Assembly (NCBI GenBank): GCA_035578155.1
Contig: JAPWDM010000021.1
Span: 496,001-560,000 of the forward strand
Reading direction: 5' to 3'
Length of the DNA: 64,000 nt
Source: Brachynemurus nebulosus
Lineage: Eukaryota; Arthropoda; Insecta; Neuroptera; Myrmeleontidae
Under the pieces are notes generated by a model. It did not search any database. It had not been told where the DNA came from and worked only from the letters and a program-made list of their open reading frames with translations. The translations under genes and the position numbers were made by a program. Positions 3,086 through 63,162 of this stretch are shown here, one piece after another (position 1 is the stretch's first letter; each line of letters opens with the position of its first letter).

Positions 3086-3186
3086 TTTGATAGATGTGAA
3101 TAGTTCGATTTATAACATAACACTGATTACTTTTTATATCGACATGATCTTATATAGTACAACCAGAGCAGAATTGACGTAAAGTA

Positions 3187-3640
3187 ATGACACCAAAATG
3201 CACCAAAGGTGCACCAAATGACACCAAAATGCGCCGAAATGACACCAAACTGCACCAAAATGACACCAAATGCACCAAAGGTGCACCAAATGACACCAAA
3301 CTGCACCAAAATGACACCAAATGCACCAAAGGTGCACCAAATGACACCAAAGGTGCACCAAATGACACCAAAATGCACCTAAATGACACCAAATGACACC
3401 AAACTGCACCAAATGACACCAAAATGCACCAAAATGCACCAGAATGCACCAAAATGACTCCAAAATGCACCAAAGGTGCGCCAAATGACACCAAAATGCA
3501 CCAAAATGACACCAAAATGCACCAAACTGCACCAAAGGTGCACCAAAATGGCACCAAACTGCACCAAATGACACCAAAATGCACCAAAGGTGCGCCAAAT
3601 GACACCAAAATGCACCAAAATGACACCAAAATGCACCAAA
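3187..3640. repeat. Minisatellite of alternating TGACACCAAA / TGCACCAAA units
   Basis: About 450 bp consist of 9-10 bp units of two types, TGACACCAAA and TGCACCAAA, in irregular order, with occasional joining motifs such as GGTGCACC. All six frames are open here, giving Cys/Trp/His/Phe-rich or Thr/Lys-rich repeat peptides that I regard as artefacts. The array lies between the C2H2 gene's 5' end (3085) and the right inverted arm (3642), that is, in the promoter region of that gene. Confidence 0.95.
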
Positions 3641-28091: not shown

Positions 28092-29141
28092 TAGTAGTGA
28101 GACGAATATATTAGTATTCGTTAAGATATCACTAATATTTACAGATATTAGATATTACTAATATCAGATATTCAGATATTATAATACTACGATATTATCC
28201 TCGAATGGGAATGTGAACGAAAAAAAGTATTAGTATGAATATATCAACAATATTATAATATATTAGTATGAATATAGCAACATATTAGTAAAGTAACGAA
28301 AACGATATGTACATGCATATAATATATTCTGTGAACGATATAAAAACCTTTACATATACACCGACACACCTATGCATACAAATATAATCCGTATCAACCT
28401 CAGTTCTTAGCAAAGGGAGATAACTATATTAAACTAAGGTAATGTACGAATGAGATAAATATATGTAAAAATATATGTGTGAGGATTTTTGAATTGTTCT
28501 TGATTTTTGCCTTTTAATTTTGTTAAGTAATTAATAAATGAATTAAAGTTACAGGGGAAAAATTAATTTTGTATCCATTATAATACTTCATTAAAAAAAA
28601 TCTTAATAGAACAGCTACTGGTTTTATTAAAAAAATATCTAGACATTATTACACAAAATGTTAAATCCTTTTTCCATTTAGGCAAAGAAATTCAAAATTT
28701 AATTCTAAGAGTTGTTACTAGAGATCTTTGATTAAACCTCAAGGCTACAAAAATTTATTTATAAAATTACCTAATGTAAGGCATTTTATACTCATAAAAT
28801 TTTACGTAAATTTTTTAATTTAAAAAAAAAATTATTTGTTGAAAATACGTTATAAGCATTACTATGTACATATAGGTATTTATGATATTAAGTACATATT
28901 ATATTCATATAACGAATACAACGAATACGTAAGTATCTACAACACAATACATATTATGTATTAGTGGTATTAGTTAAGGAATACATAATATCATACATAT
29001 CTACGATATCGAAAATATTACGTATTAGTATAGAATACAGATATTAGTAATATTTGGTATCGCTTAAGATATTATAATACCGTCAAACGAATATATTCAT
29101 ATTAGGTAATATTCATAAATATTCGTATTAACCCATCACTA
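28092..29141. mobile_element. Non-autonomous hAT-type element, 1,050 bp
   Basis: An 8 bp duplication CATAATGT flanks it (28084-28091 and 29142-29149). The right end read inward starts TAGTGATGGG, typical of hAT ends, while the left end (TAGTAGTGAGACG) is diverged. The interior consists of many ATATTAGTAT-type short inversions without coding capacity. Its removal restores the piggyBac reading frame. Confidence 0.85.
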
Positions 29142-29943
29142 CATAATGTAAGTGTTAATAGCACAAATGAACATACCGATTCTAACAATCATAGTGACTA
29201 TAGTAATAATTTTGACAATAGCTCTGATAATAGTAATGTAGTTCCTACTAAACGAAGAAGACCTCGACAACTATCAACAAGTAGTGATGAAGAAAGCAAC
29301 ATTTCCAACGAAAATGATAATGAAGGTGACGATGAATGGGAAGATATTGTAGGTGAGGATAGTTGCATACCAAATATACCCTTTTCAACATTTCCAAAAA
29401 AGCCCGGACCACAAATTTCACGAAACATCACTGAACCGATAAAGTACTTTCGACTATTTTTTACAGATGAATTGATAAACGATATCATAAAGAATACAAA
29501 CGCATATGCTGTTGGTTATCAAGAATTGTCTAAACGATCTATTTGGAATACTTGGGAAAATGTAACTAAAAAAGAATTTCTAGCTTTCATTGTTGTGATT
29601 CTCAATATGGGTACGATGCCCTTAAGTCATAAACAAGAATATGGGCCACTAGTGAAGTCAGTTATATTCCTTTTTATGGGAACACATTTACAAGAGATAG
29701 ATTTAATCAAATTTTTTGGATGCTACATTTGAAACAAACACCATCCAACGATAAAAGTTTAAAAACACGTTTACAAAAAGCCAGCTCTTTTCTTGAATAC
29801 ATAAATGATAAATTTTCCGAATATTGTATACCAAACGGGTGTATCAGTGTCGACGAATCTGTTGTAAAATTTAAGGGGAAAATTAGCTTCATAACGTATA
29901 ATCCCAACAAACCCACCAAATGGGGCATTAGAATTTATATACT

Positions 29944-34746: not shown

Positions 34747-37602
34747 GGGGAGATCCTTGTACCTTGGGACACCTTGTACCTCGGGATAAGCCCATAATTT
34801 GATAACCAATGTATTGTAAAGTGATTAGTAGTGACATCTAGTGAGTATTTGACATAAATATTCAAAACACACGCAGTGAAGTTGGCCATTTTGACTCGTT
34901 TGTTTTATATGCAACGTTTTGTGATTTTTGTAGTGTGTTTTTTTTTTGTAATCTGTATAAATTATCATTTTACTCGAAGTATTTTGAGGTGAGTAAATGA
35001 TTAAAGATACAAATAGTTATTATACACATTCGTAACTATTTATTTTGACGTATATCACTGTATTTCCCTAATTAAAAAATATAACCATACTTTATTATAT
35101 GCAATTGAAATTTGTACCTTGGGACAGCAAATTTTTTGTACCTTGGGACTGTCCCAAGGTACAAGACATTGCTTTTTTACAGTGATTTATAGGTAAGTTT
35201 GTTTTCAATATTTGTTTTTATTTATCCAGATGCCGCGAAGTAAGAACAAAGTCACCCGGCCAAAACCCAAAGAAGAAAACGTCAAAAATGCTATTAAAAT
35301 GGTCACTGACAAACGTTGTTCCATTCGAAAAGCAGCCAAAGAGTATAATATCTCAAAATCTTTATTAGGTCGATACGTGAAGTCAAACAAAGAAAACTAC
35401 AATGTTGACATCGCATATAAACCCAAGAATGATATCAAGAGAGTATTTAGCGATGACGAAGAGCAATTGGTTGCATATTGCGTAAAGGCATCCAAACTTC
35501 ATTACGGAATATGTAAAGAAGATTTTTTAAAATTAGCACACGAATATGCAGTCATTTTAAAAAAAAATCATATCCAAGTGCATGGGACACAAATAAAAGA
35601 GCTGGTAAAACATTTTTTGAGTATTTTATTAAACGGCATCCAAATTTAAGTTTGCGAAAACCAGAATCAACCAGTTTAGCTCGTGCTACTGCATTTAATA
35701 AAGCAAATGTCGCTCAGTTTTTTGAAAAATACAAGGATCTGGTGATGAAATACAATTTTACTAGCGAAAAGATCTTTAACGTAGACGAATCTGGATTGTC
35801 GACCGTACACACACCATTGAAAGTTTTAGCGCAGAAAGGATTGAAACAAGTTGGGAATATTACATCAGGAGAGAGAGGTAATAATATCACAGTTATTGCA
35901 TGCGTCAACGCGCTTGGAAATTCTGTCCCTCCTTGTATGATTTTCCCTAGAGTACACTTCCGAAACCATATGATTAATGGTGCTCCTCTTGAGACTTTGG
36001 GACTCGCAACTCGCAATGGGTGGTCTAATAGTGAACAATTTGAGAAATTCCTAAACCACTTTATTAAACATGTAAGACCGAATAATGAAAACAAAGTGCT
36101 CCTGTTAATGGATAATCATGAGAGTCACCTCTCCATTAAAATAATAGAGTTGGCCAAGGCAAATGGTATAGTAATGCTCACTTTCCCTCCACACACAAGC
36201 CATAAATTACAGCCGTTAGACAGAACCGTCTTTGGTCCGCTCAAAAGGTATTATAACAAAGCTTGTAATGATTGGCTTCTGCAACATCCTGGAAATCCTA
36301 TCACTATATATAATGTTGCCGAATGCTTTGGAACTGCTTTCCCACTAGCATTTTCACCATCCAACATTCAAAATGGATTTAAAGTTGCAGGAATATGGCC
36401 AATCAATGACAATATTTTTGATGAAAGTGAGTTCCTGAGCTCATTTGTTACCGACAGACCTCTGATAGATGATGGTGAAGTTGTGCACACATCAGACTCT
36501 CAGTTGAATGTAGTTGATCCACAACCTAATATTGCTTTGAGTGGATCATCCAAACCTGTTGATATTGAACAACACAATGATAATACTCAAGTTGCTATAG
36601 AGTCTCCAAAACCATCAACATCGACTGCTGGTAAAGAAGAAGCCAAAAATATTCCACTATCACCTGAAGCCATTCGTCCTTTCCCAAAAGCTCCACCACG
36701 TAAAAATAAAACTACTCGAAACAGGAAAGGTAGAACTAGAGTATTAACCGATTCGCCTGAAAAACAAGAACTGGAGCTATTGGCAGCCAAAAAACGGAAA
36801 AATAAAACAAACAAAAAGACTGAATCTGTTAAGAAGCAAATTTTCAAGAAAAAAGTAGAAGTAGCTCAGAGAATAAAGTAAAATTGATTTCAGAGAGTGT
36901 TGTAGACCAAAATAATTGTGTGGAGTGCGGTGAAAATTATTTTCCCACTTCAAGCTCTGAAAATTATATCCAGTGCGTAACATGCAGATTTTGGGTGCAC
37001 GGGGATTGCACCTGTTTTGATAATTATTTCCAAAAATGTGGTATTAAGGCTAAAAATAGTAAGAGTGTTTTAGAATAATGGAAAATTTTGTATTGCATTT
37101 TTTTTTTTTTTTTTAAATAGCAAGTGTTAATAAATGTAGAAATTTTCAGAAGAAGATTCTTTTTTGTTATTATTTAATAAAATTTGTTTTTTAGATATCA
37201 GAGATGAAAAACTGTAAAATAAGAGAAATATTGTTTGAGAATAAAGTTTTTTTTTATAATAAAAATGATTGCAAGTAAAACCAAACAATTATTTTTATTG
37301 CTCATTAAAAAAATATAATATATATTTTTCTTTCAGGGCTTAAAATGTCTTGCATAGTTTGTCCCAAGGTACAACCATTGATGTCCCAAGGTACAAGCTG
37401 TGATTGTACCTTGGGACAAATATCTTCGATTATTTAATTTAAGTTTTCACAAAAATGAAACACAATATCGTGATATATTGTATCACAATATTAAGATGTT
37501 ATTGTGTGCTTAGAGAATTTTCAATTTTCGAAGTCATACATCAATTTTTACTCAAGTTATGAAGCTTTAGACGAAACTGTCCCAAGGTACAAGGATCTCC
37601 CC
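34747..37602 (+). mobile_element. pogo-type DNA transposon, 2,856 bp, TA duplication
   Basis: Ends GGGGAGATCCTTGTACCTTG match exactly in inverted orientation and are flanked by TA at 34745-34746 and 37603-37604. The phrase TTGTACCTTGGGACA recurs subterminally in both arms (about 34763, 35116, 35140, 37361, 37389, 37411), probably transposase-binding sites. It carries one transposase gene with two frame breaks. Sharp identical ends suggest that it is among the youngest insertions of the nest. Confidence 0.93.
35230..37078 (+). pseudogene. pogo-like transposase (psq HTH, DDE_1, Cys-rich tail), frameshifted
   Basis: ATG 35230 opens MPRSKNKVTRPK; upstream in-frame codons lack an ATG. A pipsqueak-type helix-turn-helix (CSIRKAAKEYNISKSLLGRY) is followed by a CENP-B-like region. 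One frameshift near 35578 separates this from the DDE_1 domain (35652-36881): NVDESGLS, LLLMDNHESH and LQPLDRTVFGPLK, with 35 residues between the last two Asp. A basic linker follows. After a stop at 36879 the frame changes into a Cys/His-rich PHD-like tail (CVECGENYF, CVTCRFWVHGDC). Catalytic residues are intact, so the damage is slight. Confidence 0.88.
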
Positions 37603-44083: not shown

Positions 44084-44409
44084 AATAAGCCTATGGAATG
44101 TGACAAAGAAACTATCTCACCACCGTGGTGCCGCGACTAGTGAACCGCAGACAGTTCAACCGCGACAATTCAACCCCGACAGTCCAACCGACGACAGATC
44201 AACCTAACTACAGATTGACTGACGACAGATCAACCGACGACAATTCAACCTAATCACATTTTAACTGAAGACAATTTAACCGTTATACAATCTATTAACT
44301 AATAAGAACAAAATTATTTGAATTTCACCTAATAATGAAATTTGCCTCCCTTGAGGCTTGATACTAAATAAGTATTTATGTAGCCTCAAGGGCGACTCTT
44401 TACACAATT

Positions 44410-45188
44410 AAGGATATAGTATTTGGTTGGGTTGTGTTGGGTTTGGTTGAATTCGATTAATTTAGGTGTTGTTTGGTTAGGTTAGTCTGTTAAGTTGTAT
44501 TTGGTTACGTTAGGTTGGGTTTGTTTATAATTTGCTGAATTCGGTTGGTTTCGGCTGGTTTTGGTTGGGTTAGGTCGGATTTGTTTACAATTTGTTAATT
44601 TCGGTTACTTCACGTTGGGTTTGGTTAGGTTTATATATAATTTATTGAGTTCAGTTAGTTTAGGTTGAGTTTGATCAGTTAGGTTTTATTTGGTTGTGTT
44701 TGGTTAGATTAGGTTGGGTTTGTTTATAATTTGTTGAGTTCGGTTAGTTTAGGCTAGTTTTGGTTAGGTTAGGTTGGGTTTGTTTATAATTTATTGAGTT
44801 CGGTTAGTTCAGGTTGGGTTTGGTTATATTAGGTTGTTTTATATTAGGTTAGGATGAGTTTGTTTATAATCTGTTGAATTCAGTGAGCTCAGACTGGTTT
44901 TGGTTAGGTTAGGTTGGGTTTGTTTATAATTTACTGAGTTGGGTTGATTCAGGTTCGGTTTGGTTACGTTAGGTTGTATTAGGTTAGGTTAGGTTTATTT
45001 ATAATTTATTGAATTCGGTTAGTTTAGGTTGGGTTTGGTTAAGTCAGGTTTTATTTGGTTAAGTTGTGTTTGGTTAGGTTAGGTTGCTTTTATTTATGAT
45101 TTGTTGAGTTTGATTAGTTTAGGTTGGGTTTGGTTAGGTTAGATTTGTTTATAATTTATTGAGTTGGGTTAGTTCAGGTTGGATTTAG

Positions 45189-45190
<2 letters not shown>
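44410..45190. repeat. TTAGG-rich minisatellite, units of about 100 bp
   Basis: About eight diverged copies of a unit combining GGTTAGGTTAGGTTGGGTTT, TTTATAATTTGTTGAGTT and CGGTTAGTTTAGG. The GGTTA/TTAGG content resembles the insect telomere repeat (TTAGG)n, but the array is degenerate and lies inside a transposon. Confidence 0.9.

Positions 45191-45191
<1 letters not shown>

Positions 45192-45278
<87 letters not shown>
45192..45278. repeat. (TA)n microsatellite
   Basis: An uninterrupted run of TA, about 43 units, adjoining the minisatellite at the inner edge of the right arm of the 1,350 bp element. Confidence 0.97.
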
Positions 45279-45280
<2 letters not shown>

Positions 45281-47789
45281 TGTTAAGCAGTTAAAATGTC
45301 CTGTGGTTTAACTGTTCTTCGGTTCAAGTGTCATTTAGTTAAACTGTCGTGAGGTTGAATTGTTATCGGCTAATCTGTCGTTAGGTTGAATTGTCGTCGG
45401 TTGATCCGTCGTCGGTCGAACTGTAGCGGTTTAACTATCGCGGTTGAACTGTCCGCGGTTTACTTGTTACAGAACCCACCACCGTCGACTCGAAAAGTTT
45501 TAGAATGGCTACACAACATTTCTAACGAAATAAGTGCTACGTGTTCTTCTGTAGAATCCAATTCATCAACACTGCAAAGCCCACCAAGTTCATTACATAG
45601 TTGCATAGGCACACTGCGTGGAGAAAATGTTTATAATCTGCTCAAAACAACAGTAAAAGGGCAATTAGTTTTGGCACACTATGAGAAAAAGAAAAGATTA
45701 GACAGCAAAAAACAGCGGGATTTAACCCATTGCATTGTTGAGCACTTTATTGGAAGGAAAATCAAAATGACATACAAGGATATGGAACAGTGGTCAAATG
45801 CCAAAGAAGAATATTTTCGAACGGAAAAAGCAGTAAATTAATTTTATTTCTCATATCATTTTTCTAAAATGATTTTATTGCTTGGTGAATTTGCAGGGTT
45901 TCGAACCAGTTTTTTTTCGTCCCATTTCAAAACAGAAAGGAATTTCCGTTGTAATTACAGAAAAGTCGATTATTTTTGGTTTTCAATTTTAAGTAAAATT
46001 TAATAACTTTTTATCAGTTGTATATACATACTTAATATATCTATTTTCTTACTTCCTAAAAATTGTAATACATTCATATTTTATATTTAGTTTTGTTAAA
46101 ATTGATTTTTAATGTTATTGTTTATTTTCCAAAAGTACAATTTTAAAATTTGTATTTGAAGGTTATAAAATAAAATTTAACAGCAAATTTCAAATCCAGC
46201 TTAAACAATAACGACATAAGATTCGATTAACGATTTTTGAAAACAACAAATTATTCCAGTCAACGATTTTGCCACTTTATTGTTACCGTTTGGTTCAAAG
46301 CCCTGGTTTACATTTGAAACAATTTTGTTATAGGTATGCACACTTAAATTTGTATCCTTATTATTTAAATTTATTTCTATAGGAAACTTACTTTTAACCC
46401 AGAAAGGCGGGAAAAAGAAATCTGACCGGAAAATTGCATGCTCGATGGTGCAATTCTGAACAATCTTCAAGCTCTCAAAAAGTAGATAGTATAGACGACT
46501 CCGAATGTGAAGAAATATCGCAAACTAATAAAGGTAGGAATTTTTAATTAATTATAGTATCTGAAATTGTAAGAATATACTTACATTTTTAGACGAATTT
46601 TACGAAAAAAAAAAAAAAATGTTGTTTAATAAATAATTGTACACCCTGGTCAACTGTTCGAAGCTACTGGCAACAAACAAGAAACATAAGAACATCACAA
46701 TTAGCGAAAGACACAAAAATTCCGTTAGCAACGCTGTTAGAAGAATGGCCACGTTTTAATGATCCAAATGGATACGAATTAGTAAGAAACTTTTTAAATG
46801 TAGTTTGATGAATCAAACTGATAGATACATTTTGTTGCTTTTTTGCAGATTGATATCAATTTTCAAACATTGCATCCAGGCAAAGGAAACCTTTTATTTC
46901 TAAAATATAGCGATTTTCTTAATGGAATTGTACCATGTTTTCAACTAGAAATTAAATATAAAGCATCAAAGGAACTCTTAAAGCTTTTGAACAGCGAGGA
47001 GATATTAAAAGGTTAGTTTGAGATAGATAGTTAAAGATAAGTTGTGTTCGTATTGTAACAAAATTTTGTTTTATTTTTTAGATTTTAAAGATTGTATCAT
47101 AAGTTTACTTTTACATGTTGTTCTGCCATCGATCCGGTTAAGTAAAACCCATAAACCAACTATAGTCAATGCATAAGAAGATTTTATTTTACATATTCAT
47201 ATGGCTAATGATTTAATTCCAAAAATTAAGCAATTACAAAATGAATTTGCCGCACGTAAGGAAAAATTACAGCCAAAAATTATTGTAGCAGGACCTAAAT
47301 TAGAGAATACGAATTTTATGTTTTTTGTGACGAGATAAAATACAAATTGTGTACATTTAATAAGTGTACTGATGTAATTATAAAGTTATGCCATATGTAT
47401 AAAGTTGAATATTCTATGAAAAGTAAATTATTCAAGGAAAATTTAAAACCCAAGTTTCATAATCTTGTACATTATCCAAATATAATAAGGAAACTTGGTC
47501 CCATAAAGCTCTTATGGTGCTTCAGATTTGAAGCAGAACATCGTATCCATATAAACATTATGCGCAGAGTATCACATCCAGGTTCAATATTCCACTGACA
47601 CTTTGTACTAACTTTGTATTTTTTTCAACAAGAATATATATTAAGTGCTGTAAAAACAGATAACTTGCGAAAGGAAATCTACTTTGATTATTTACGTCTA
47701 AATGGAGATGATCTCAATTTATATACTAAAACTAATATAATACAGTTACTATATAATATAATACTAGAAAAATTCAAAGATTTTTGACA

Positions 47790-50732: not shown

Positions 50733-51481
50733 TCACCGCATTAACATTGCCTAAGTCATACGCTTCCACCACATACTGCGCCGCTCTGAACCTCAAACCT
50801 TTACCCTTGCACATCATTTACCTCGCCAATAATTTATTTAATATTACCACACAAATATTATTTTTTATTTTTTGCCGCAACATATACAAAATTTTTTAAG
50901 AACCTGTTGTAATAAAATGTATTGATTCTTTTGATTAATAATTTAAAAAAAAAAATATATATTGCCTGCCTATGTTTCAATACGTATAACCCTCTTAAAT
51001 TAAAAAGACATTTTTCATTAAAAAAGAATACATTTTAAATTAAAAGGTATACCATTTTAGACTTAAAAGAAGTTCTTTTCAAGTTAAGAGGACTACCTTG
51101 TTTAAAAAGAATGTATTTTAAATTAAAGAGACTACGCTTTAAATTAAAAGGTTTTCGGCCTTATTAATGAGAAAAATAAAATCATACTAACACCATTTTT
51201 GCATTACACTGGAATCATTTTAGTAAAATCGTATTAATGAGCAAATGTCAAGTAAAAACTATGTTTTTGTATGTTATTAGTGTTTTGTCATATTAATGAG
51301 TCCACTTAAAATAATACTAAAACCATTTTAAGCTTAGTAGTATTTTAAAAATTAAAATCATTCTAATGTATGTTTTACACTATTTTAAACAGATACTGGC
51401 AGTTAATTTAACTATTTGATTCTGGTTTATAAATATTAGCTATTGGATTCTTGTTATTAAAATATAATAAACGTTATTAAA
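50733..51481. other. Upstream region of the Harbinger transposase
   Basis: AT-rich, with several related phrases of the type TTTTAAATTAAAAGG between 50990 and 51150, in direct and inverted form, possibly the degraded left end of the Harbinger element. No coding feature. Confidence 0.35.
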
Positions 51482-52537
51482 ATGGATGAATTTGATATAA
51501 ATGAAGAAATTTTCGAAGTGGAAGAAGTTAATTTACTGGGTGTGGAACGTAATCCAAAAATATATATGCTACGAGTAGATCCTTTGGAAACTCTTGATGA
51601 CGCCAATTTTAAGAAAAGGTATAGAATGACCAAAGACACTGCTCGTTATGTAATAAATTTAATCCGTAACGATGTGACTCCAATTGATGACAATCACGGA
51701 GGAAGAATTAATGCCTCTACTCAAATAATGGCTGTAATAAGATACTTGGCAAAAGGTTCATATGAACAAGATGTAGCCGATTATCATAGCTTATCACAGC
51801 CTACAATGAGTACAGCCATTAAAAAAGTAGTGACAGCGCTCGCTCAGTTACGACCGCAATTTATTCAGTTTCCCCAGCGAAACGAATTAAACGAAATAAA
51901 AATGGGGTTCTATGACATCGCCCATTGTCCGTCAACTGTAGGAGTAATCGATGGGACCCACATCAGAATTAAAAATCCTGGTGGAGAAATACCGGCCACA
52001 TTCTTAAATAGAAAAGGATTTTATTCCATAAATGTGCAAGTTGTGGCAGATCACAAACTCAGAATTCGGGACATCGTTGCTCGATGCCGCGGAAGTACTC
52101 ATGATTCACGAATATGGAACGAATCCTTATTAAAAAGACGTTTTGATGAAAGAAAAATAGACGGTATCCTTCTCGGGGACAGCGGTTACCCCTGTTCGCG
52201 AGCTATCTTGACGCCAGTTCGAGCCCCAAATACAGAAAGGGAACAAAGGTATAATAGAGCTCACATACAAACACGAAATGTAATTGAACGCGTATTCGGT
52301 GTTTGGAAAAATAAATTTCGCTGTTTGTTAAGAGGATTTGAAATAAATTTAGAAACTGCGAAAGCAGATGTAATTGTAACTGCTATATTACATAATATCA
52401 TAATAAATCACCGCCTCCAAAATGAGGATACTGATTCCGACGATAATCTCGGAGAGGATATGGAAAATGAAGATAATTTCAACTTCGAAGAAGACGAACA
52501 CAGAGATTTAGCTGGTCAAATTTATCGAAGAAATTAG
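51482..52537 (+). CDS. PIF/Harbinger transposase (HARBI1-like), 351 aa, intact
   Basis: ATG 51482 to TAG without interruption. The N-terminal half has a helix-turn-helix-like segment (SYEQDVADYHSLSQPTMSTA). The DDE_Tnp_4 core shows Asp in VIDGTHIRIKNP, Asp in LLGDSGYPCS and Glu in RNVIERVFGVWK, and a C-terminal helix with AILHNIIINH; the tail is very acidic. The length matches HARBI1-type proteins. Active Harbinger elements also need a Myb/SANT-like partner protein; the end of such a convergent gene lies just downstream on the minus strand (52626-52775) but is truncated. The gene is either from a recently damaged element or preserved by selection. Confidence 0.9.
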   Translation: MDEFDINEEIFEVEEVNLLGVERNPKIYMLRVDPLETLDDANFKKRYRMTKDTARYVINLIRNDVTPIDDNHGGRINASTQIMAVIRYLAKGSYEQDVADYHSLSQPTMSTAIKKVVTALAQLRPQFIQFPQRNELNEIKMGFYDIAHCPSTVGVIDGTHIRIKNPGGEIPATFLNRKGFYSINVQVVADHKLRIRDIVARCRGSTHDSRIWNESLLKRRFDERKIDGILLGDSGYPCSRAILTPVRAPNTEREQRYNRAHIQTRNVIERVFGVWKNKFRCLLRGFEINLETAKADVIVTAILHNIIINHRLQNEDTDSDDNLGEDMENEDNFNFEEDEHRDLAGQIYRRN

Positions 52538-53160: not shown

Positions 53161-56100
53161 ATGAGTTCTTATAAACACAAATCTGGATCACAAAAAAGAA
53201 AAGAAAAAGAGGTGCGCGATTTAGAGGCTGCCAAAGGGCAAACATCTCTGAATAGGTTTATAAAAACAAAAACCCATACTGATAATGCTGAAACTACTGC
53301 GTCTGAGCCTGAAACTTCTGTTTTTTTATCTGAGACTGACACTGTTGATAGTCCCGTCCCTCGGGCCTCTCAACTAAATTGACATTACGAGAGCCTGATA
53401 ATGTGGATACTACCGTCCCCTTGGATCCCTCTACATCATCGACATTGACATTATTATGTGAGACTGATAATGTGAATACTACCGTCCCTTCGGGCCCCTC
53501 TACGTCATTGGCATTATGTAAATACTTCGATGTTGGAAGTCCTGATTTCAATATTGAAACAGACTTGAAAAAAACTCACGAAAAGCCGCCTACAGTTTTT
53601 CCATTGGACTCCAAGGGGGCCTCAATGCCAACTTTTATTTTTAAAAAGAAGTTAGTAAACGGGGAGAGTGTAGGGAGAGATTGGTTGGTTTGGAGCAAAA
53701 CCAAAGCAGCTCTATTTTGTTTACCATGTAAACTCTTCAGTCCGCTAGGTATTGGCAAAATGTCAAGCCTTGAATCAGATGAGGGATGGTCTGCAAGTCG
53801 AAATTGGCATAAGCTATATGCTAGAGTTCCTGAGCATGAAAAAAGTGAACTACACAAATCATGTTATGTACGATGGAAAACTGAGCAATTAAAACACGTT
53901 AAAGATAAATCCTTAAGTGACCTCCTCGATAAAAATATAAACCATGATCAACAATTGTGGCGTGGTCTACTTCGGCGCTTTCTTGATGTTACGCTTTTTC
54001 TTGCAGAGAGAGGGTTAGCTTTCCGAGGTGACAGTGACAAAATTGGCGATTGCACAAACGGCAATTTTCTCAGAATCCTAGAACTGCTAGCTAAATATGA
54101 CCCGCTTCTTCGTGACCACCTCCAAAAAGTACGTCACTCTCAAGAAACTGGAAACAAGCTACAAGTTTCTTACCTATCACCGAAAATTCAAAATGAATTC
54201 ATTGATGTGTGTGGATCAATTGTGCTGCAACATATTCTGAAGGAACGCGAAGAGGCCAAATATTCTGCTTTGATAGTCGACGCTACTCCAGACTCAGCTT
54301 ACAAGGAACAAACAGCGTTTTTGATTCGATACGTTCATATTTCCGACAAAGAACCTGACGACAGTGAACCAAAAGAACAGCTGTTCGAAATCCACGAACG
54401 CTTGCTCGCTTTTGTGGATTGCTCCAAGAAAACTGGAGAAGCGATATACGATCTTGTTAAAGCCACACTTTCTGAATTCAACATACCTTTGTCTGACTGC
54501 CGAGGACAAGGGTACGATAATGGTAGTAATATGAAAGGAATGTACAGGGGCGTACAAGCCAGATTATTGAACGATAACAACCTTGCCGTGTACTCTGCAT
54601 GTGCGTGTTGTAACGAGTAAACATCAACTATGGTTTTTATGCAACCAACACAACACATGCGTATTACCTTTTATATAACTTTGTTGGAAGTGGGAATTAA
54701 CGACATCTGTATGCCATTATCAATAATAACAGTCGTTAATAGTTTAGACTCACACACAACGACGGCGATGGTTGAAACTAAAGGCGTCGTTGTGGGTGAG
54801 GGGAGAGTAAGGTAATCGTATGTTGATTATATACTAATGTTCATGGGGGAGAGAACTCAATTAGGGTTTGGGGTTGTAAAGAGGATGAAGTACCTCTTAT
54901 ACAACAATTAAGCTGTGGGGCCTTAATTCGTTTCATTAAATAATTTAATTGTTGTCATCACCACAGCAGATTTTAATAAATAATTTTATTATTGTTGAAG
55001 TGTTTGTTTTTAATACTTTTCCTTATTTCAACATGAACAGTTACATAATACAGGGATACAGTATAACATAACGGATTTATTACATATCGAACCCACGTAC
55101 AAATATCTAACCGATTCATAACAATACCGCCGTCCACCCGAATCCGTTAGAGTGTCATTCCCTGAATCTTTGTGGAGAACAAGCAGCGACAAGTTGCCGT
55201 GAAGCGGACACGTTTTTTGGAGTAGTCCAAAAGCTGTATAATGTTTTTAGTTCAAGTCCTCAACGATGGGAAATTCTCCAGAAGAAAGTTGGCTGCTCAT
55301 TACATTCAACCTCACAGACTCGATGGTCTGCACGAGTGGAAAGTATTAAACCAATAGCTGCACATCTTCCGAGTTTAGTGGAAGCACTGGACGACGTTTT
55401 GCTTCTAAATTTATCGGCAGAGTGTAGAAGAGACGTAAAAGGACTCATAACATACCTGAGATCTTTTGACTGTTTGATTTTGGCATCAATATGGTTTAAA
55501 GTTTTGAAAACCATTGACATAGTCAACAAAGTTATACAAGCGCGTGGAGCGACGATTGAGGTGGTCAGTGAGAATCTAAAAGATTTAGTTAGTGAACTAC
55601 AGAAGCTGCGAAATGAAGGTTGGGAAAAGATTTGGAGTGAAGTGACAACTATAGCCAAAAATATTGGTTGGCCTGATCACTTAACAGAACAGTCGAAGAG
55701 AGTGAAAAAGCGAAAAAGGATGGCTGATGAGGATGTTAGTGACGAAGACACACAAGAGGTAGTCGATGAAAAGAAATTGTTTGAAAGAAATGTTTTCTGC
55801 GTCATTTTAGACCAGATAATTTCAGATCTGGATTTGAGGTTTCAGTCACTTAAAGACATTATTCAAGTTTTTTCAGTCCTTTTGGAATTTAGGTCTATGA
55901 CGGATGAAGATATCAAAAGCCAGGGACCTAGTTTCAAGATATCATGATGATTTACAAGAAGAATTAGTTGACGAAATTCAGAGCCTCAAGTTAATATATT
56001 CAACAAACTTTGGAAAAAAGACACTCAACCCATTAGAACTACTGAACCGTCTTCACAAGATAAACCTTTCCAACATGTTTCCAAATGTGTGTATCGCACT

Positions 56101-56317
56101 ACGAATTTTTTTGACCATTCCTGCAACTGTTGCAAGCGCGGAAAGATCGTTTTCGACTTTAAAAAGAGTTAAGAATGTTCTGCGATCTATAATGACGCAA
56201 CAGAGACTATCAAGCCTTGGTGTTCTGGCTGTGGAATCTCAAATAGCGAAAACCATCAACATGGATGATGCTATCAATGACTTCGCGGCCAGGAAAGCCA
56301 GAAAGAAAGGCCTGTAA
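53161..56317 (+). pseudogene. ZMYM1-like hAT transposase, broken by a solo LTR and frameshifts
   Basis: ATG 53161. A repetitive Thr/Ser/Asp N-terminal region has a frameshift near 53375. A TTF-type zinc finger follows (DWLVWSKTKAALFCLPCKLF), then a DUF4371-like domain and the hAT RNase H fold with ALIVDATPDSAY (first Asp) and GQGYDNGSNMKG (second Asp). At 54609-55151 an insert interrupts the frame; removing it joins YSACAC to HSLNLCGEQA. The remainder (55152-56317, frameshift near 55940) ends in the hAT dimerisation domain with IPATVASAERSFSTLKRV, containing the third acid. ZMYM1-like proteins in vertebrates are domesticated relatives; here it is a dead transposase. Confidence 0.85.
54609..55151. 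mobile_element. Probable solo LTR, 543 bp, with 4 bp duplication
   Basis: It starts TGTAACGAG and ends CCGTTAGA, close to the TG...CA and short inverted form of LTRs, and is flanked by GTGT (54605-54608, 55152-55155). It has no coding capacity. Removing it restores the transposase frame exactly, so the borders are reliable, but the LTR identity is an inference from terminus, length and duplication size. It is not from the same family as the gypsy fragment, as far as I can see. Confidence 0.65.
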
Positions 56318-56789
56318 TTTGCTGAATTTTTCAAATGAAGTCCGGATGCTCTCTATTTCCTCGTATTTTTATAAGGTATGTTTGGTTTTAAACTTATAAA
56401 TATTTTAATAACAGTATCAAATAATATAACAATAACAGTAAAAATATCTAAAGATAAATAATTTGTTTTTTAAACAAAAATATCATGTAGGCTTATTAAA
56501 AAGAATGTTTATACTTATATACTTATATTATTTTAATAGTGAATTCAGCGGATTTTGGTAATATTACAGACCATGAAATGTGAATAGCAATCGAAGGTAG
56601 GTGTAATAATACACAAAATCCGTAATATACTCTTTTAGTAGTTTGTAGTAAGTGAGTCCTCCTGTTCATTTAACCCACCAGCCGGCACTGATACCGGGAC
56701 ATGAAGGGGCCCGGCCTGATATCTTTACCAGGGCCCGCCAAAGCTGGGTACAGCCCTGCCAGATACTATACTGAAACTGGAATATCAGT

Positions 56790-57160
56790 GCAAAAAATTA
56801 GCGAAAATGTAAGGAGTAAGCGTCCGTGCAGTCCAAAACGCGATCAAGCGATTTGGTACACATAACACATTGAAGGATCTACCCGGTCGTGGCAGAAAAG
56901 TCAATGTGGCATGAAATCATCTCCTTTTTTCACTCTCGGGAATATAAATAGCGAAATTTACCGGAAGGAATGTCTCCAAAATCGTGTGTTACCACTCACC
57001 CGAAAACACAGAGGTCGGACACTATTTTGAATAAGCGATATACACGCGATACCTTGCGCTGGCATCGCGAGAACAATGTAGATTTTGTGGAAAAGGAGAT
57101 AAATCATCCAAATTGTCTGCAAATAAGGCCTACTGAAAAAAATTTTGGGTTTTGATGAGA
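56790..57160 (+). pseudogene. Tc1-like transposase relic
   Basis: 56806-56910 encodes a helix-turn-helix end (VRAVQNAIKRFG, DLPGRGRKVNV). A later segment (about 57060-57150) encodes NVDFVEKEINHPNCLQIRP, matching the C-terminal (N/P)PNxPQxRPIE segment of Tc1 transposases. The catalytic middle is deleted and frames change. Short and dead. Confidence 0.6.
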
Positions 57161-57195
57161 AGACGACTACGGAAGAAGGATAAGGGAGCCGATTC

Positions 57196-57890
57196 TATGC
57201 GTGGTTTTCTGCCAACTGACAGCAAAAAACATTTTTGGTTGAAAAATTCGACTTAAATGCATAATTCGAAGTCCAATTTCGGGAAAAAGGCTAGCCGTCT
57301 ATTTTCTGCTGGTATGACGTTTACTAGCTTATTAGAAATAACCAGCGAAAATTTGAACCAGATCCTATGCGTGGTTTTCTGGCAAATGACGGCAAAAAAT
57401 ATTTTTTGTTGAAAAATGCGCCATGAATACATGATTCGAAGTCCAATTTCGGGAAAACGGCTAGCCGTCTATTTTCTGCTGGTACGGCATTTTCTAGCTT
57501 ATTACATTAGTAATAACCAGCGAAAATTTGAACCAGATCCTATGCGTGGTTTTCTGGCAATAGACGGCCAAAAATTATTTTTGTGGAAATAAGCGCCCCT
57601 GATGCCTGATTCGAAGTCCAATTTCGAGAGAACGGCTACCCGTCTATTTTCTGCTGGTATGGCGTTTGCTACCCTATTATATTAGTAATAACCAATGAAA
57701 TTTTGAACCAGATCCTATGCGTGGTTTTCTGGCAATTGACGGCAAAATACATTTTTTGTTGAAAAATGCGACTTAAATACATGATGCAAAGTCCAATTTC
57801 GGGAAAACGGCTAGCCGTCTATTTTCTGCTGGTATGGCGTTTGCTAGCTTATTATATTAGTAACAACTAGCGAAATTTTGAACCAGTTAT
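57196..57890 (+). repeat. Left tandem array, four units of about 175 bp
   Basis: TATGCGTGGTTTTCTG starts copies at 57196, 57366, 57541 and 57716. Each contains AAGTCCAATTTCG, GGCTAGCCGTCTATTTTCTG and CCAGCGAAAATTTGAACCAG. Copies differ by about 5-15%. Confidence 0.95.
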
Positions 57891-57915
57891 TAAAAAAATG
57901 GTGGGACAAAATTAA

Positions 57916-58135
57916 CCCCTTTAGGACTAATGACGAGCTCAGCTCGTCATGCTAATTTTTAGAAAAAATTCAACTGACGAGTGTGCATTGTTTATATCGA
58001 TAACTGGAGGCTGTATAGTAAAGACCGGTCATACTGTAAATAAATTAAACAAAATGTACCACACTTGCAATTAAACTTATAGAGATATTAAATTTTTTAT
58101 CTAAAAAATTGGAATATGTGGCGGTACTAAACGGG
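57916..58135. mobile_element. piggyBac-type miniature element, 220 bp, TTAA duplication
   Basis: TTAA at 57912-57915 and 58136-58139. Ends CCCCTTTAGGACTAA and CCCGTTTAGTACCGC (reversed) match at most positions. A perfect subterminal palindrome TGACGAGCTCAGCTCGTCA lies at 57931-57949. No coding capacity. Confidence 0.88.
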
Positions 58136-58136
58136 T

Positions 58137-60889
58137 TAAGGGCTCGGTAATTGAAGGACTCAATCATAACGAAATAGACCAATCAGTATGTGACGAAAAA
58201 AATACTTCCGATTTTAACATGACATCGACATCATTTTTCATACATCGACGAAAAGATCGTATTTTATGGTACCAGCATCATTCTGAAATTCCTAATACGA
58301 CAATAAACCTAAATTGAAGAAATATTGGACAGATGAATTTAATTTTTATTTTAGTACTCTATATCCTATATGTGTTTTAAAATTTTTATATCATTATATC
58401 AATGGATTGTTTAAAAAATTTTCCTTTGAAAAAAGAAAATCGTTTGTTGGCGTTGCAGTGTGTAAACATATAAACTGTGCAAAATTTAAATTTTATGCTT
58501 TGGGACCTTTAGATGCTAGGGATGTTAAAATTTATGTTATTCAAAATGGAAATATCATTCATAAAAAGGGGGAACATCATCGCAGATTTAAAAAAGGGCC
58601 AGCACGAGAAAAATTATCGCAAGAGTTAATGTCTAAAACACTCACTGTCGTAAAATACGAACACTTCGCCAAAGGCAATTTTGATACAATGGCAGCTGGT
58701 AATTTCAACAATATTCCAAATACAAATATTTTAAAAACCATTTCCAGTCAAAATGTTAAGAAAAATGATTTACACACAAACGAGTTTATATATTTAATAA
58801 AATTAAAAGAAAAACTATGTAATGACTGGGAAGGGAATAATATTGAAGGCTATATTCAGTCTATGGGCTATGACCCATTTACCATTTACTTGCAAACCGA
58901 AGCCCAGTTGAAACATATTATCGAGCGGAGTAAGACTAAAAATATCTTTTTGTATTTCGATGCCACAGGTTCAGTTATAAAACGACCAGATTGGATAAGA
59001 AAAAGAATATATTATTACGTATTAATTTTAACAGAAAAGAAAAGTTCCCCCTTACCAGTTGCCGAATTTATCTCGTCCAGCCACAACGTTCCAACAATCT
59101 CGAACTTTTTATTTAATTTTGTATATCATTTAAGGAACCCCAAACAAACTCCTATTATAAAGAAAATTGAAGTTGATTTTAGTTTTGCATTAATTCAGTC
59201 TGTTTTAATAGCCTTTAATAAAATTGATTTGAGAAGTTATTTACAAATTATGTGAACCTTTGTACTTGAAGTTGGAACAGTTGACCATATAACTATAATT
59301 CATATTTGTTCGGCACATTTTTTGAAAAATGCAATTAATAAAATAAATAACAAAAAATAAAATTCTAAAGCAGTTATTTAAAAAAGTCGTAGCATTTTTG
59401 ATTAATTGCAATAGTATTAGTGTCGCAAATAAATACCTTCGTTCTGTTTATGTTGCTTTTGATTTAGAGAAAAGAGTACCTTTATTTAAAAAGTATTATG
59501 ATTGTATTATTTTATGTAGGAAGTTCGATATGGGAATTAAATTAAATGATATAAACGATTATGAAATAGACCGGCAAAATTCACTTAAATTCAGTTCTGC
59601 TTTTTACAAACATTTTTTAAATTTACATAAAATAGTGCAGGATGAAAACAAATCGTCTTACCGAAAAGATTTATATTATAATTCTAAATTTATTACCTTT
59701 TTAAATAGATTTGTTGCCCTATTTTCCACTTTGGTCCGGTATTGTTATAAAAAAATTTAATATAAATAGAGATACGAACGCCACAGTTGAAAACTGGTTT
59801 AAAATTGTGAAAAAAGATATTTTTAATAAAAAACTGCAACAAAAAGCACCTCGTTTCATTGATAGACTTAGTACGATTTTAAAAGGAAAATTAGTTGAAA
59901 AAAAAGTTGAAAATATAAAATGTGTTAATAATGAAAAACCGATTGTACCTAAAGATACCTATAATTATGAAATGATAGAAGAAAAATGGTTAAAACGTGA
60001 GAAAAACACAAAAGGATATTTTAAGACATTTTCAAAATATTGTCCTGATAACGAATTCGAATTAAAAAATATAACGCCATGGCAGTCATTAATTCCACAA
60101 ATTAAAAAACTCAAGTATAATATCTTAAATAATACGGTTGAATTAGTAAGTTTGAAAACATTATTCCCTGGTGAGTGGAATGACGACATAATTATTAATA
60201 CTTTTGTCACTATAAATGTGCATCTGGCACGGGAAAGGAGCTATTCTCTAATATCATTTGATCCCTTATTTATTACAAAATTAATGGCTGGTAATTTCAC
60301 TTTCGATAGCTGGACAAAGAAGAAAGACATTTTTGCAAATAAATTATGGCTACTACCGATTAATGTAAATCAAAATCATTGGGCATTAGGTGTTTTCGAT
60401 TTCAATAGTAAATTTATTACATATTTAGACTCAATGCACGGAACATTCCCAGCAGATATTTTATTACAATTAGTAAGATTTATAAGTTTTCAATATTTTA
60501 AAAAATATAACAGAAATATAGACTGGTTGCAGTGGAAATTAATTAATGCAGATGATATCCCTTCCCAAAAAATATCCGGGGGCAACTGTGGCGTTCATTT
60601 ATGTGTCTGGTCATATATATTATGTTCCTCTTCTGCCTTTGTATTTACTGAAGATGACATGTTAAATGCTAGAAAGTGGATATTGAATACATTATTAACT
60701 TACGAAAATTATGAGTTTTCATCCTGTACGGAAAATAATGTTAATGTATTATTAGAAGATAATTCCATAAGCGAAGACTTACCAACTTTTTTTAAAACTT
60801 TACCAAATTTTACGAAATGTAAAAAGCCCCCCGGATATACTTCAACAATTGAATATTGTAGCACGGTGTTAAAAAAACAGTACATGTAA
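58137..60889 (+). pseudogene. MULE-like DDE transposase fused to a Ulp1-type cysteine protease
   Basis: Coding similarity starts before 58314, with a frameshift near 58310. The DDE half has YFDATGSV (Asp, 58959), VDFSFALIQSVL (Asp, 59174), an IHICSAHFLKNAI His/Cys segment read through a TGA at 59253, and ATVENWFKIVKK (Glu, 59789). Frame breaks occur near 59355 and 59725. The C-terminal half (about 60290-60880) has the C48 protease set: His in NQNHWALGVFDF, Asp in TYLDSMHG (60428), Gln in IPSQKISGG and Cys in GNCGVHLCVW (60588). All four protease residues are present. In eukaryotes Ulp1-fold proteases cut SUMO-like tags; in transposons their role is unclear. The damaged frame says this copy is inactive. 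Confidence 0.75.
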
Positions 60890-61974
60890 ATCTATTAATC
60901 ATTTTCAGTTAATTCAGTTAAAAAAAAATATTTGAACCTTTTCATTTTATCTTTTCGTATCTAGTCAGCTGGTCTGACTAAATAATTTTAGTGTGTTTTA
61001 TCGTTTTTCGTCATTATACTATTAAGGTCCCTTTACACCCTTAGTAGTGTTTTATAGTTACTTATTTATTTATTTATTGTGGCCTTTTTTTACATATCTA
61101 ATTAGCTAGCTTGATTCAGTAATGTTAAGGTTTCACTGTTTTTGCTATTTATGTTAGCAGAGATACTTCACATTCGTATTAGTAAATTTTCAGAAAAAGG
61201 ACAATAAAATCCCGTTTAAATTTTTGCCTGATGTTAATTAAAGGAATCATAATGTGCCAATATCGCAGAAAATATACCGTCAACTGTTTTCTCGAAAATT
61301 TTACCGAAACTCGTACGGTTTATATGGGCTTGTTGAGGTACTCTGGTTCCTTATTTCAGGACTCCGTCGTAGCACACAACACTTTTCAAAAAGTAGACAT
61401 AATAATCAAGAAGTTCGGTCAACAAATAACAACTTAAAGAAATTTTTCTGATAAGCAATTAAGAAAAATTATAGTAAGAGTTCCATATATCCCTGCCCAG
61501 TTCTTTGTCCAATTCTTTGCTCAACTAACTGCTGATAAACTGACTGCATGTTTTCAATTCGTATATCCAACTGATTGAACCATACCGACTGAATCTTCCG
61601 AATTAACTGACCAATTTCTGTATTCAATGGGGCTTTCGAAATGCCATTTGCTGCATCTAATAAGAATGACGTAACCTATTGTTGTTGCCTTCTTGATGTT
61701 ACCTTCTGGAATGTGCTCGAATATTCCAGAAAATTCCATCCTTACATAGAAAAAATAAAATTGTAAAAAAAAAAAATAATCCGTACTAGGTAAATACAGC
61801 TGGGCAGGTAAATACGGTAGCAGGCAACGTGTTCGATAAGTACAGTGGAGCTCTTATAATCATCCCCTATAAAAACTTGCGTACGGTCGCTGTAGGAGTG
61901 TCAGGTCCCACCTCCAAGTTGCAAATCTTGTTGCCGAAAGTTCATCACGTCCCGTGATCTTAGTGTCAAGATAA
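60890..61974. other. 3' region of the DDE-Ulp1 element; small coiled-coil candidate on minus strand
   Basis: No clear gene. On the minus strand, about 61700-61490 reads as a helical peptide with heptad-like Leu/Ile/Val/Gln spacing (IRKIQSVWFNQLDIRIENM, then VYQQLVEQRIGQ) that lacks a clear start, so it may be the last exon of a second gene. A plus-strand frame at 61254-61451 has no recognisable content. Confidence 0.35.
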
Positions 61975-62461
61975 AATACAGGGCTAGCCGTTCTCCTGAA
62001 ATTTGACTTCAAATCATGTATCACAGGCGCTTATTTCCACAAAAATAATTTTTGGCCGTCTATTGCCAGAAAACCACGCATAGGATCTGGTACAAATTTT
62101 CGCTGGTTATTTACTAATGTAATAAGCTAGAAAACGCCGTACCAGCAGAAAATAGACGGCTAGCCGTTTTCCCGAAATTGGACTTCGAATTATGTATTTA
62201 AGTCGCATTTTTCAACAAAAAATATTTTTTGCCGTCAATTGCCAGAAAACCACGCATAGGATCTGGTTCAAACTTTCGCTGGTTATTACTAATATAAAAG
62301 GCTAGAAAACGCTATACCAGCAGAAAATAGACGGCTAGTCGTTCTCTCGAAACTGGACTTCGAATCAGGTATCAGAGGCGCTTATTTCCACAAAAATAAT
62401 TTTTGGCCGTCTATTGCCAGAAAACCACGCATAGAATCTGGTTCAAACTTTCGCTGATTAT
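61975..62461 (-). repeat. Right tandem array, inverted copy of the 175 bp units
   Basis: About three copies; the reverse complement carries the same GCGTGGTTTTCTGGCAA and GGCTAGCCGT phrases as 57196-57890. It ends abruptly at the TCTATATATC motif of the next repeat. Confidence 0.93.
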
Positions 62462-63100
62462 CTATATATCTATATATAGAAAGTGGTGTTAGTTACACTA
62501 CTTATAACTCAAGAACGGATGAACCGATTTGGCTGAAAATTGGTGGAGAGGTAGCTTAGAACCAGGAGAAACACATAGGATACTTTTTATCCCGTTCGAA
62601 CGCTTTTTCGTGAAGTCAGTATAAAACGTGGTATAACAAAAACGCATATGACATAAATCTGAAAATATACATACATACGTATGTTTGTTATTGACTTTTG
62701 TTTCCATAGTTTCAAAGTATGCATTGGCAAAAATTTAAACATCTTTTACAACTGACATAAATTAATAAAAAATTTTACTATTTATTTAAATAAATTTAAA
62801 TTTTACGAGTCGTGCGAGTCGTATGGCGAGCTGAGCGAAGCATTACCTGGAATTAACCTTTTATAGAATTTTGAATTGTTTAGCGAGCGAAGCGAAGCAC
62901 TTTATAGGCGAGTCATATGGCGACCGGAGCGAACCATTACCTGGAATTAACCTTCTAGGGGCATTCCATAAAAACAAAGACATAATGTCGAAACAATAAT
63001 TTTTTTTATAATTAATGTTTAGCACTTCAAATGTGTCCATAATATGAAGCCAGGTAATAGTCTATGCATATTTATATATTTTTTCAATAAAATCTATAAA
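62462..63100 (+). mobile_element. Helitron-like non-autonomous repeat (tentative)
   Basis: It starts TCTATATATCTATATATAG, compatible with a Helitron 5' TC end after an A. It also has the phrase ACGGATGAACCGATTTGGCT and a CATAGGATACTTTTTATCCC block that I remember from many insect non-autonomous repeats. A direct repeat GAGCGAA(G/C)CATTACCTGGAA follows. I could not identify the CTRR 3' end or hairpin, so the class and right border are uncertain. Confidence 0.35.
62821..62963. repeat. Direct repeat of about 40 bp, two copies
   Basis: Units containing GAGCGAAGCATTACCTGGAA and CATTACCTGGAATTAACCTT occur near 62830-62863 and 62925-62960, with GCGAG(C/T)-rich sequence between them (TAGCGAGCGAAGCGAAGCAC). 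Confidence 0.85.
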
Positions 63101-63162
63101 AGAAATGAGTAATAATTACGATTTGGGAGAATGGTCCGAAGAAAAAGTTTCAAAAGTATTAT

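Follow-up and report, generated by a model that had tools for sequence, protein, structure and literature searches.

What is a SUMO-type protease doing inside the transposase of an insect transposon? The question is raised by a locus in a 64,000-nucleotide stretch of the genome of Brachynemurus nebulosus (Neuroptera, Myrmeleontidae; contig JAPWDM010000021.1, positions 496,001 to 560,000; hereinafter the window), where an initial annotation, made from the letters alone, described a DDE transposase fused to an Ulp1-type protease between inverted 175-bp satellite arms. We consider it likely that the window contains a decayed copy of a Mutator-like, cut-and-paste foldback transposon in which the DDE transposase is fused to a peptidase of family C48, and that this peptidase would help the element to escape silencing. 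The classification of the element as a recently mobile, C48-fused foldback transposon of the Mutator-like element (MULE) type, similar to Rehavkus, is well supported, as is cut-and-paste movement, given the termini and the target site duplications (TSDs); desumoylation of the silencing machinery would be a plausible role of the C48 part.

Does the fusion exist as a single gene? In the window, the gene is broken over three frames, but two intact copies, which the initial annotation had recommended to look for, were found elsewhere in the genome (960 Mb in 138 contigs searched; the C48 frame of the window yields 41 matches). The genome also has 86 matches to the insect-typical 7tm_6 family, in keeping with an insect host. 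In these copies, on contigs C84 and C1, one open reading frame (ORF) of 1005 codons, counted from the first ATG, encodes the DDE and C48 parts fused. The two ORFs differ at 4 of 3018 nucleotides (2 silent and 2 replacement differences), and the difference over 6.6 kb is 0.5%. The C84 copy spans positions 1763719-1784813 (21,095 bp), is bounded by ACGATGGTGTTTTTAGCAG and is flanked by the 9-bp repeat ACACCAAAT. From the outside inwards, it consists of an outer unique inverted repeat of ~416 bp that starts with ACGATGGTG, a satellite arm, an inner inverted repeat of 576 bp (98.6%), a stretch of ~4.2 kb in which no open frame longer than 122 aa was found, and the ORF, followed by the mirrored parts. 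The two arms, read end to end, are 4982 bp and 6455 bp long (~28 and ~37 units), compared with which the four- and three-unit arms described for the window, 4.0 and 2.8 units by our count, are a remnant. The C1 copy measures 27,569 bp between its termini and has the TSD TAAGTTAAT. The satellite unit was found to share no motif with the outer terminal domain; a single match of the inner domain (3 of 300 shuffles) was disregarded as a long, gappy alignment.

Is this element mobile? Allowing up to 3 mismatches, the terminal 31-mer has 144 matches in the genome (70 forward, 74 reverse), and the reversed pattern has none. Pairing, for which 100 listed termini of the 144 were used, yields 32 elements of 1.6-27.6 kb (median ~6.1 kb) and leaves 36 ends unpaired. 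An exact TSD flanks 27 of these 32 elements (9 bp in 24, 8 bp in 3), within the 8-11 bp that characterize MULEs, and none was found in the remaining 5, whereas among 992 mispaired flanks used as a control, none shares 8 bp or more and 5 share 6 bp or more. TSDs, which the initial annotation had proposed to look for at the outer ends of the arrays, flank elements elsewhere in the genome but not the copy in the window. In the 6 of the 32 paired elements that were read end to end, inverted arrays invariably lie inside the termini, and the TSD is 9 bp long in five and 8 bp in one.

These observations bear on the view that the arrays are ordinary satellite DNA into which a transposon was inserted or which merely flanks one. 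The monomers of 175 bp, with a higher-order period of ~350 bp, look satellite-like, and the unit has at least 607 matches in the genome (the array search scored 31 of 790 candidates). Nevertheless, we find this explanation very improbable, considering the inverted arrays inside the termini of all six elements read end to end, each with a TSD, the outer and inner inverted repeats that bracket the arrays, and the arms of other sequence that occupy the equivalent places in three related families (L017, L018 and L019; see below).

In most of the paired elements, no gene match was found. Two are intact, one (C41:9.98M) is degraded, one on C123 retains a 34-aa fragment, and the other 28 contain no C48 or DDE match, which is what we mean by gene-less; both searches provide lower bounds, and in the DDE search, 78 of 147 candidates were scored. 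The arrays, then, literally do occur independently of the gene, an outcome that the initial annotation had singled out as speaking against its proposal. Because they share the same termini and mostly have TSDs, however, the gene-less copies look like non-autonomous derivatives rather than independent satellites. The four gene-less copies that were read through are palindromes in which the inverted arrays abut, and the junctions, as judged by eye, fall at different unit positions, which matches the expectation of independent internal deletions. In the longer alignments, the outer domains of these four copies match that of the intact C84 copy at 99.3-100% identity; two short pieces that are cut off give 96.8-99%. 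This near-identity to an intact element suggests that the four copies probably moved recently, presumably in trans. Tandem repeats inside long inverted termini, together with the gene-less members, are the hallmarks of foldback elements.

How complete is the fused protein? In an alignment of 11 proteins (A5), two of which are the near-identical intact copies, D356, C475, H478 and E638 of the DDE part are present in all 11 and D431 in 10, so that the MULE-type DDE triad, with a CxxH motif between the second D and the E, is in place. The protease part retains His836, Asp853, Gln899 and Cys906 in all 11, that is, the His-Asp-Gln-Cys set of C48 peptidases in the SENP fold, and the claim of a complete catalytic set is thereby borne out. 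The Trp following the catalytic His is likewise present in all 11, and the position of the lid Trp of SENP/Ulp1 is occupied by W in 8 of 11 and by F, Y and V elsewhere. In the window, the domain is recognized as Pfam PF02902 (2.9e-14), its best sequence relative in the PDB being SENP1 (2.1e-21). Together with the DDE-type motifs and the single ORF of the intact copies, these matches confirm a MULE-like core and a C48 domain in one protein of an animal element. Upstream of the DDE core, most of the 11 proteins possess a C-C-H-H zinc-finger-like segment; P0005 is without this region, P0002 and P0004 are without the last His, and Pfam does not recognize the segment in the intact protein P0020 or in P0022, the product of the related family L017. 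Nor does the Pfam MULE domain PF10551 match P0020 or P0022 at E<=10; matches below the cut-off appear in the relatives P0013 (0.0078) and L097 (0.023). Pfam finds no C48 in P0022 either, for which the assignment comes from the A5 alignment.

In the protein database, 19 homologues were identified, 5 of them added to an initial 14 by a profile search in which 7993 candidates were scored. The Pfam column of the database lists C48 for 8 of these, including P0005 (Psylliodes) and P0011 (Pyrocoelia), both from beetles; six of these C48 entries represent single proteins 1150-1270 aa in length. P0006-P0009 and P0014 have no Pfam domain, P0010 and P0017-P0019 are short (497-695 aa) and without any domain, P0012 combines PHD and YqaJ, and P0013 carries an OTU domain (8.5e-11). 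Where its fold aligns with those of SENP1, SENP2 and Ulp1 of peptidase family C48, the relative P0015 is ~18-27% identical to them in sequence; the protease discussed here differs from these in being fused to a transposase. The top Foldseek rows pertain to the protease only, with the DDE neighbours in the VIA list. A database search with the C48 part alone returned none of 1253 candidates at E<=0.001, using a tool that requires shared 5-residue words, and among viral contigs, 27 pattern matches included no relatives.

So is the protease a working part of the element or a passenger? The capture of gene fragments is frequent among MULEs, and the plant KI-MULEs carry a reversed ULP gene (PMC2528002), such that the C48 part could be a captured host fragment, as in Pack-MULEs, without a role in the element. 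Yet, C48 keeps its place in all 11 aligned proteins, which, the near-identical second copy aside, share 24-32% identity with P0020, and the catalytic residues are invariant. Furthermore, when compared with a sister subfamily (C41:10.76M, C41:9.98M and C90, themselves broken copies), the ratio of nonsynonymous to synonymous substitution rates (dN/dS) is as low for C48 (0.13-0.16, three copies) as it is for DDE (0.15-0.16, two copies), at dS of 0.53-0.61; over all aligned codons, it is 0.14-0.19. The similar values in both domains indicate about equal constraint on the protease and the transposase, and we regard a mere passenger as hardly credible. The other comparisons are less clear-cut: L014, a close copy (DDE 0.36 at dS 0.04; C48 dS 0), is too young to be informative, and the values of 0.18-0.22 per domain for the window, C41:0.93M and C2 copies mix older constraint with decay.

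The same layout recurs in this genome with different arms. The families L017, L018, L019 and L020 are ~30-40% identical to the element, with an equal arrangement of parts. L017 (C1:88092500-88102400) has an intact ORF of 1119 codons and inverted arms of a 162-bp satellite, with at least 7 units in one and at least 27 in the other, ~95% alike; L018 and L019 have 164-bp arms and a single ORF that carries the motifs of both domains; and the arms of L020, with units of 164-170 bp, resemble those of L018. In the stretches examined, L021 shows a 165-bp array on one side and L022 no array. Are the units of different families related? With one dimer of each of the 175-, 162- and 164-bp units, no BLAST match was better than E 0.011 over 16 nt, and of six unit alignments, the two best were equalled by 5 and 6 of 200 shuffles and the others by 30 to 162; the units show no clear similarity, although a faint kinship may exist. 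Both domains were seen in 8 of the 10 relative loci that were translated, with constant order and strand in 8 of 8, and only C48 was seen in the stretch examined of the other two; homologues encoding the two domains as separate genes, the outcome that would have told against a true fusion, did not appear among these loci. There are DDE matches without a C48 match nearby, for example C74:17252908, C116:12944491 and C122:22619511, these being partial matches.

Three more remote relatives, L096 (C116:5.07M), L097 (C34:6.01M) and L099 (C74:22.09M), possess ATG-started frames of 880, 964 and 1015 aa, in which no C48 was seen. A Cys box, NTC.FD..Q, is common to all three and a His box, IGHY, to L097 and L099, both boxes resembling those of ubiquitin hydrolases. 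L097 matches Pfam UCH at 0.034, below the cut-off, and PDB profile matches are USP15 and USP4 at 0.026-0.31. These similarities are no more than suggestive of a ubiquitin-hydrolase-like C-terminus in place of C48. Separately, at L098 (C65:2867900-2871000), a DDE remnant continues in frame into sequence that, by eye, resembles ORF1 of a long interspersed nuclear element, and an equal second match is located at C65:2971644.

What, then, is left in the window itself? The left arm remnant, on the plus strand at 57191..57886, comprises four tandem 175-bp units which, by the unit identity matrix, are of types A, A, B and A (Tandem Repeats Finder score 986), and the right arm remnant, on the minus strand at 61973..62461, comprises 2.8 inverted units (score 747); the inverted arms that the initial annotation had noticed are accordingly real, with corrected bounds. 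The arrays are complementary, with 93% identity in a 351-nt arm pair and 96% in a 184-nt pair, and the 22-nt core of the unit has 7 matches in the window against 0.00 expected by chance, so the repeats are not fortuitous. The two unit types are distinct: unlike full units are 81-86% identical, like units 89-96%, and comparisons of unlike units that involve the partial unit R3 give 76-84%. Counted from the outside, the left arm reads A-A-B-A and the right arm B-A-B. A remnant of the inner, non-satellite inverted-repeat domain, corresponding to the 576-bp repeat of the C84 copy, is present on the right side only, adjoining the right array (61410..61972, start approximate, no strand assigned); this copy lacks the outer terminal domain of the element, and there is no TSD at the outer ends of the arrays (8 bp exact, or 9-11 bp with at most one mismatch).

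The gene between the arms, all of it on the plus strand, preserves the order of motifs, YFDATG, EVDFSFALIQ, HICSAHF and VENWFK followed by the C48 domain, in pieces. As delineated from the ORF list, motifs and alignments, an N-terminal remnant in its own frame (58105..58317) is similar, in translation, to the intact protein P0020 from codon ~69-70 onwards; the alignment of the window to the C84 copy begins at 58136, and alignment to the intact ORF shows that about the first 69 codons are missing. Frame 1 (58296..59255) contains the C-C-H-H zinc-finger-like segment, the first D (FDATG) and the second D (EVDFSFALIQ) and ends in an in-frame TGA at 59253-59255, beyond which it continues (59256..59357) with the CxxH motif HICSAHF, whose C and H are conserved in 11 of 11 aligned proteins. 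The stretch from CxxH to the E motif lies in frame 2 (59347..59760), and frame 3 (59705..60889) carries the E motif (VENWFK), a linker, the C48 protease, recognized by Pfam and by the SENP1 match, and a conserved C-terminal tail. By the extent of the SENP1 match in the PDB sequence search (frame residues 143-325), the C48 domain occupies 60134..60682, with the codons of the catalytic His near 60377 and the catalytic Cys near 60587. The frame is broken near 59357 and 59705, and probably a third time near 58317. Could the locus still be a functional gene, perhaps a domesticated one? Long open stretches do persist, such as the 394-aa frame that holds C48, but the truncated N-terminus, the in-frame stop and the frame breaks, as well as the like divergence of the DDE and C48 parts (0.22 and 0.19), render this extremely unlikely.

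The history of the locus is clarified by a duplicate. Window positions 55256-63110 match contig C41 at ~926500-936400 (L011) in pieces of 98-99% identity on either side of the element, with the same flanks, and the C41 paralogue of the C48-containing frame 3 is 99% identical. The duplicate has 7.0 and 6.8 units where the window has 4.0 and 2.8, which implies that array lengths changed after the duplication, and its truncated junctions are identical to those in the window, which explains the missing TSD. Thus, the window copy is a dead, truncated fossil within a segmentally duplicated locus.

The remnant is surrounded by other repetitive sequence. Judged by eye, its left flank (56952-57190) is what we take to be Tc1/mariner-like and its right flank (62466-62900) what we take to be Helitron-like; Pfam found nothing in the left piece. 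Further away, a long open frame at 8942-10978 matches Pfam 'Mutator' PF20700 (1.2e-54), a kind of transposase distinct from that of the fused element, and other transposase remnants lie at 51461-52534, 35517-36878, 29106-29729 and 55901-56314 (Pfam DDE_Tnp_4, DDE_1, DDE_Tnp_1_7 and hAT dimerisation domain). Complex TTAGGTT-rich arrays at 44131-45462 are flanked by repeats of short units, CGACAGTTCAAC-like and GTTGAACTGTCG-like, which are apparently mutually inverted, and a AATGCACCAA minisatellite occupies 3186-3640, across which minus-strand ORFs of 168 and 193 aa are open.

Where does the intact element belong among known transposons? The closest description is that of Rehavkus-1_TC of Tribolium castaneum, the inverted termini of which are short tandem arrays of a ~160-bp satellite, the 164-bp TCsat23, mostly in five and eight monomers, within an element of 9.5 kb (PMC10218199), as against 21 and 28 kb for the intact elements here. 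A tabulated summary of the Rehavkus group gives a PHD finger, a 9-bp TSD, one ORF and a minisatellite (PMC6446971), and Rehavkus serves as an outgroup to arthropod MULEs (PMC13359780). The element shares with Rehavkus its kinship to MULEs, the arthropod host, the satellite in the inverted termini, the 9-bp TSD and the single ORF but not the PHD finger, of which there is none in P0020 or P0022 at E<=10; among the relatives, one occurs in P0012 and, below the cut-off, in P0011. Since the search revealed no PHD finger, we file the element only as Rehavkus-like rather than as Rehavkus. The available texts of the three Rehavkus sources mention neither C48 nor a protease, and "transposase" is likewise absent from that of PMC10218199; this does not show that Rehavkus lacks a protease, and Rehavkus itself may well carry C48.

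The fusion, too, has precedents. Mutator transposases with an Ulp1 domain are described from hydra and lancelet, as is Ginger1 with such a domain from Hydra (PMC2836005); these combine C48 with an animal DDE transposase as here, although Ginger1 has a core of the Gypsy-integrase type and terminal inverted repeats (TIRs) of 44-270 bp, and satellite arms are not described in the available portion of that source. The plant KAONASHI (KI) MULEs, further treated in PMC6117577, are also MULEs with a C48 protease but have ULP reversed relative to mudrA and no TIRs (PMC2528002), in contrast to the single ORF on one strand and the very long TIRs seen here. Tm1 of Meloidogyne, a Mutator/Foldback element with a Phantom-like transposase, resembles our element in its foldback-type composite TIRs, 9-bp TSDs and gene-less classes (PMC3169594) but has an internal motif of ~14 bp instead of the 175-bp unit, and neither "protease" nor "ulp1" occurs in the main text of that paper. 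In Tetris and Galileo of Drosophila, tandem repeats (~220 bp in Tetris) lie inside the inverted termini, copies without a gene occur, and there is a link to satellites (PMC4079207); for Tetris, unlike here, no transposase has been found, and the available text contains none of "ulp1", "protease" and "peptidase". Against this background, the statement that such an element is poorly described was too strong, given the Ulp1 of hydra and lancelet Mutator (PMC2836005) and the satellite termini of Rehavkus-1_TC (PMC10218199), at least as far as the accessible parts of these sources go. Both halves were known separately; what makes the element a good test system is that it combines them, that its relatives differ in their arms and that intact copies exist. 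Among the papers listed, we noticed no description of a satellite-armed transposon with a fused C48, which is weak evidence of absence inasmuch as most subscription papers and the Repbase Reports were outside the search.

How might such an element work? In the scheme that we favor, the DDE part would cut and join DNA with a 9-bp stagger, the N-terminal part would bind the ends or the arms, and unequal exchange would lengthen and shorten the arms; gene-less palindromes would arise by internal deletion between the arms and then move in trans. At the donor or the target site, the C48 part would strip marks of the SUMO type, most probably from silencing factors that depend on SUMO, and thus might help the element to escape chromatin silencing. 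A SUMO ligase is described in piRNA silencing (PMC7272611). A different target is a serious, if clearly less probable, possibility: the protease might act on the transposase complex or on the DNA-repair factors that heal the donor or target site, rather than on chromatin. A single polypeptide would place the protease right at the cut site, a repair role has been proposed for the Ulp1 and OTU domains of Ginger and Mutator transposases (PMC2836005, from its available portion), and the same conservation data fit; sequence by itself cannot separate this reading from silencing escape.

A more sweeping interpretation, which we consider rather unlikely in its entirety, is that these elements represent an insect MULE lineage with two linked inventions: its own SUMO-type protease, which would locally disarm silencing that depends on SUMO, and arms in mirror image built of ~160-175-bp monomers, the length of which, near that of one nucleosome repeat, would be kept while the sequence is replaced between families (175, 162 and 164 bp). 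The OTU domain of P0013 and the USP-like boxes at three loci would then reflect a recurrent need to disarm ubiquitin-type marks, and the palindromes without a gene would live as hyperparasites of the system and give rise to new satellites. With two near-identical intact copies and dozens of gene-less relatives in one genome, three questions become testable, namely, what SUMO or ubiquitin proteases are for in animal transposases, whether the arms of foldback elements serve as binding platforms or are by-products, and how satellite arrays originate within transposons and come to be replaced from one family to another. Plant anti-silencing proteins have been named, VANC among them (PMC6446971, in the part available). 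Should the protease be a weapon against silencing, such proteins would have in it an animal counterpart, though in function only.

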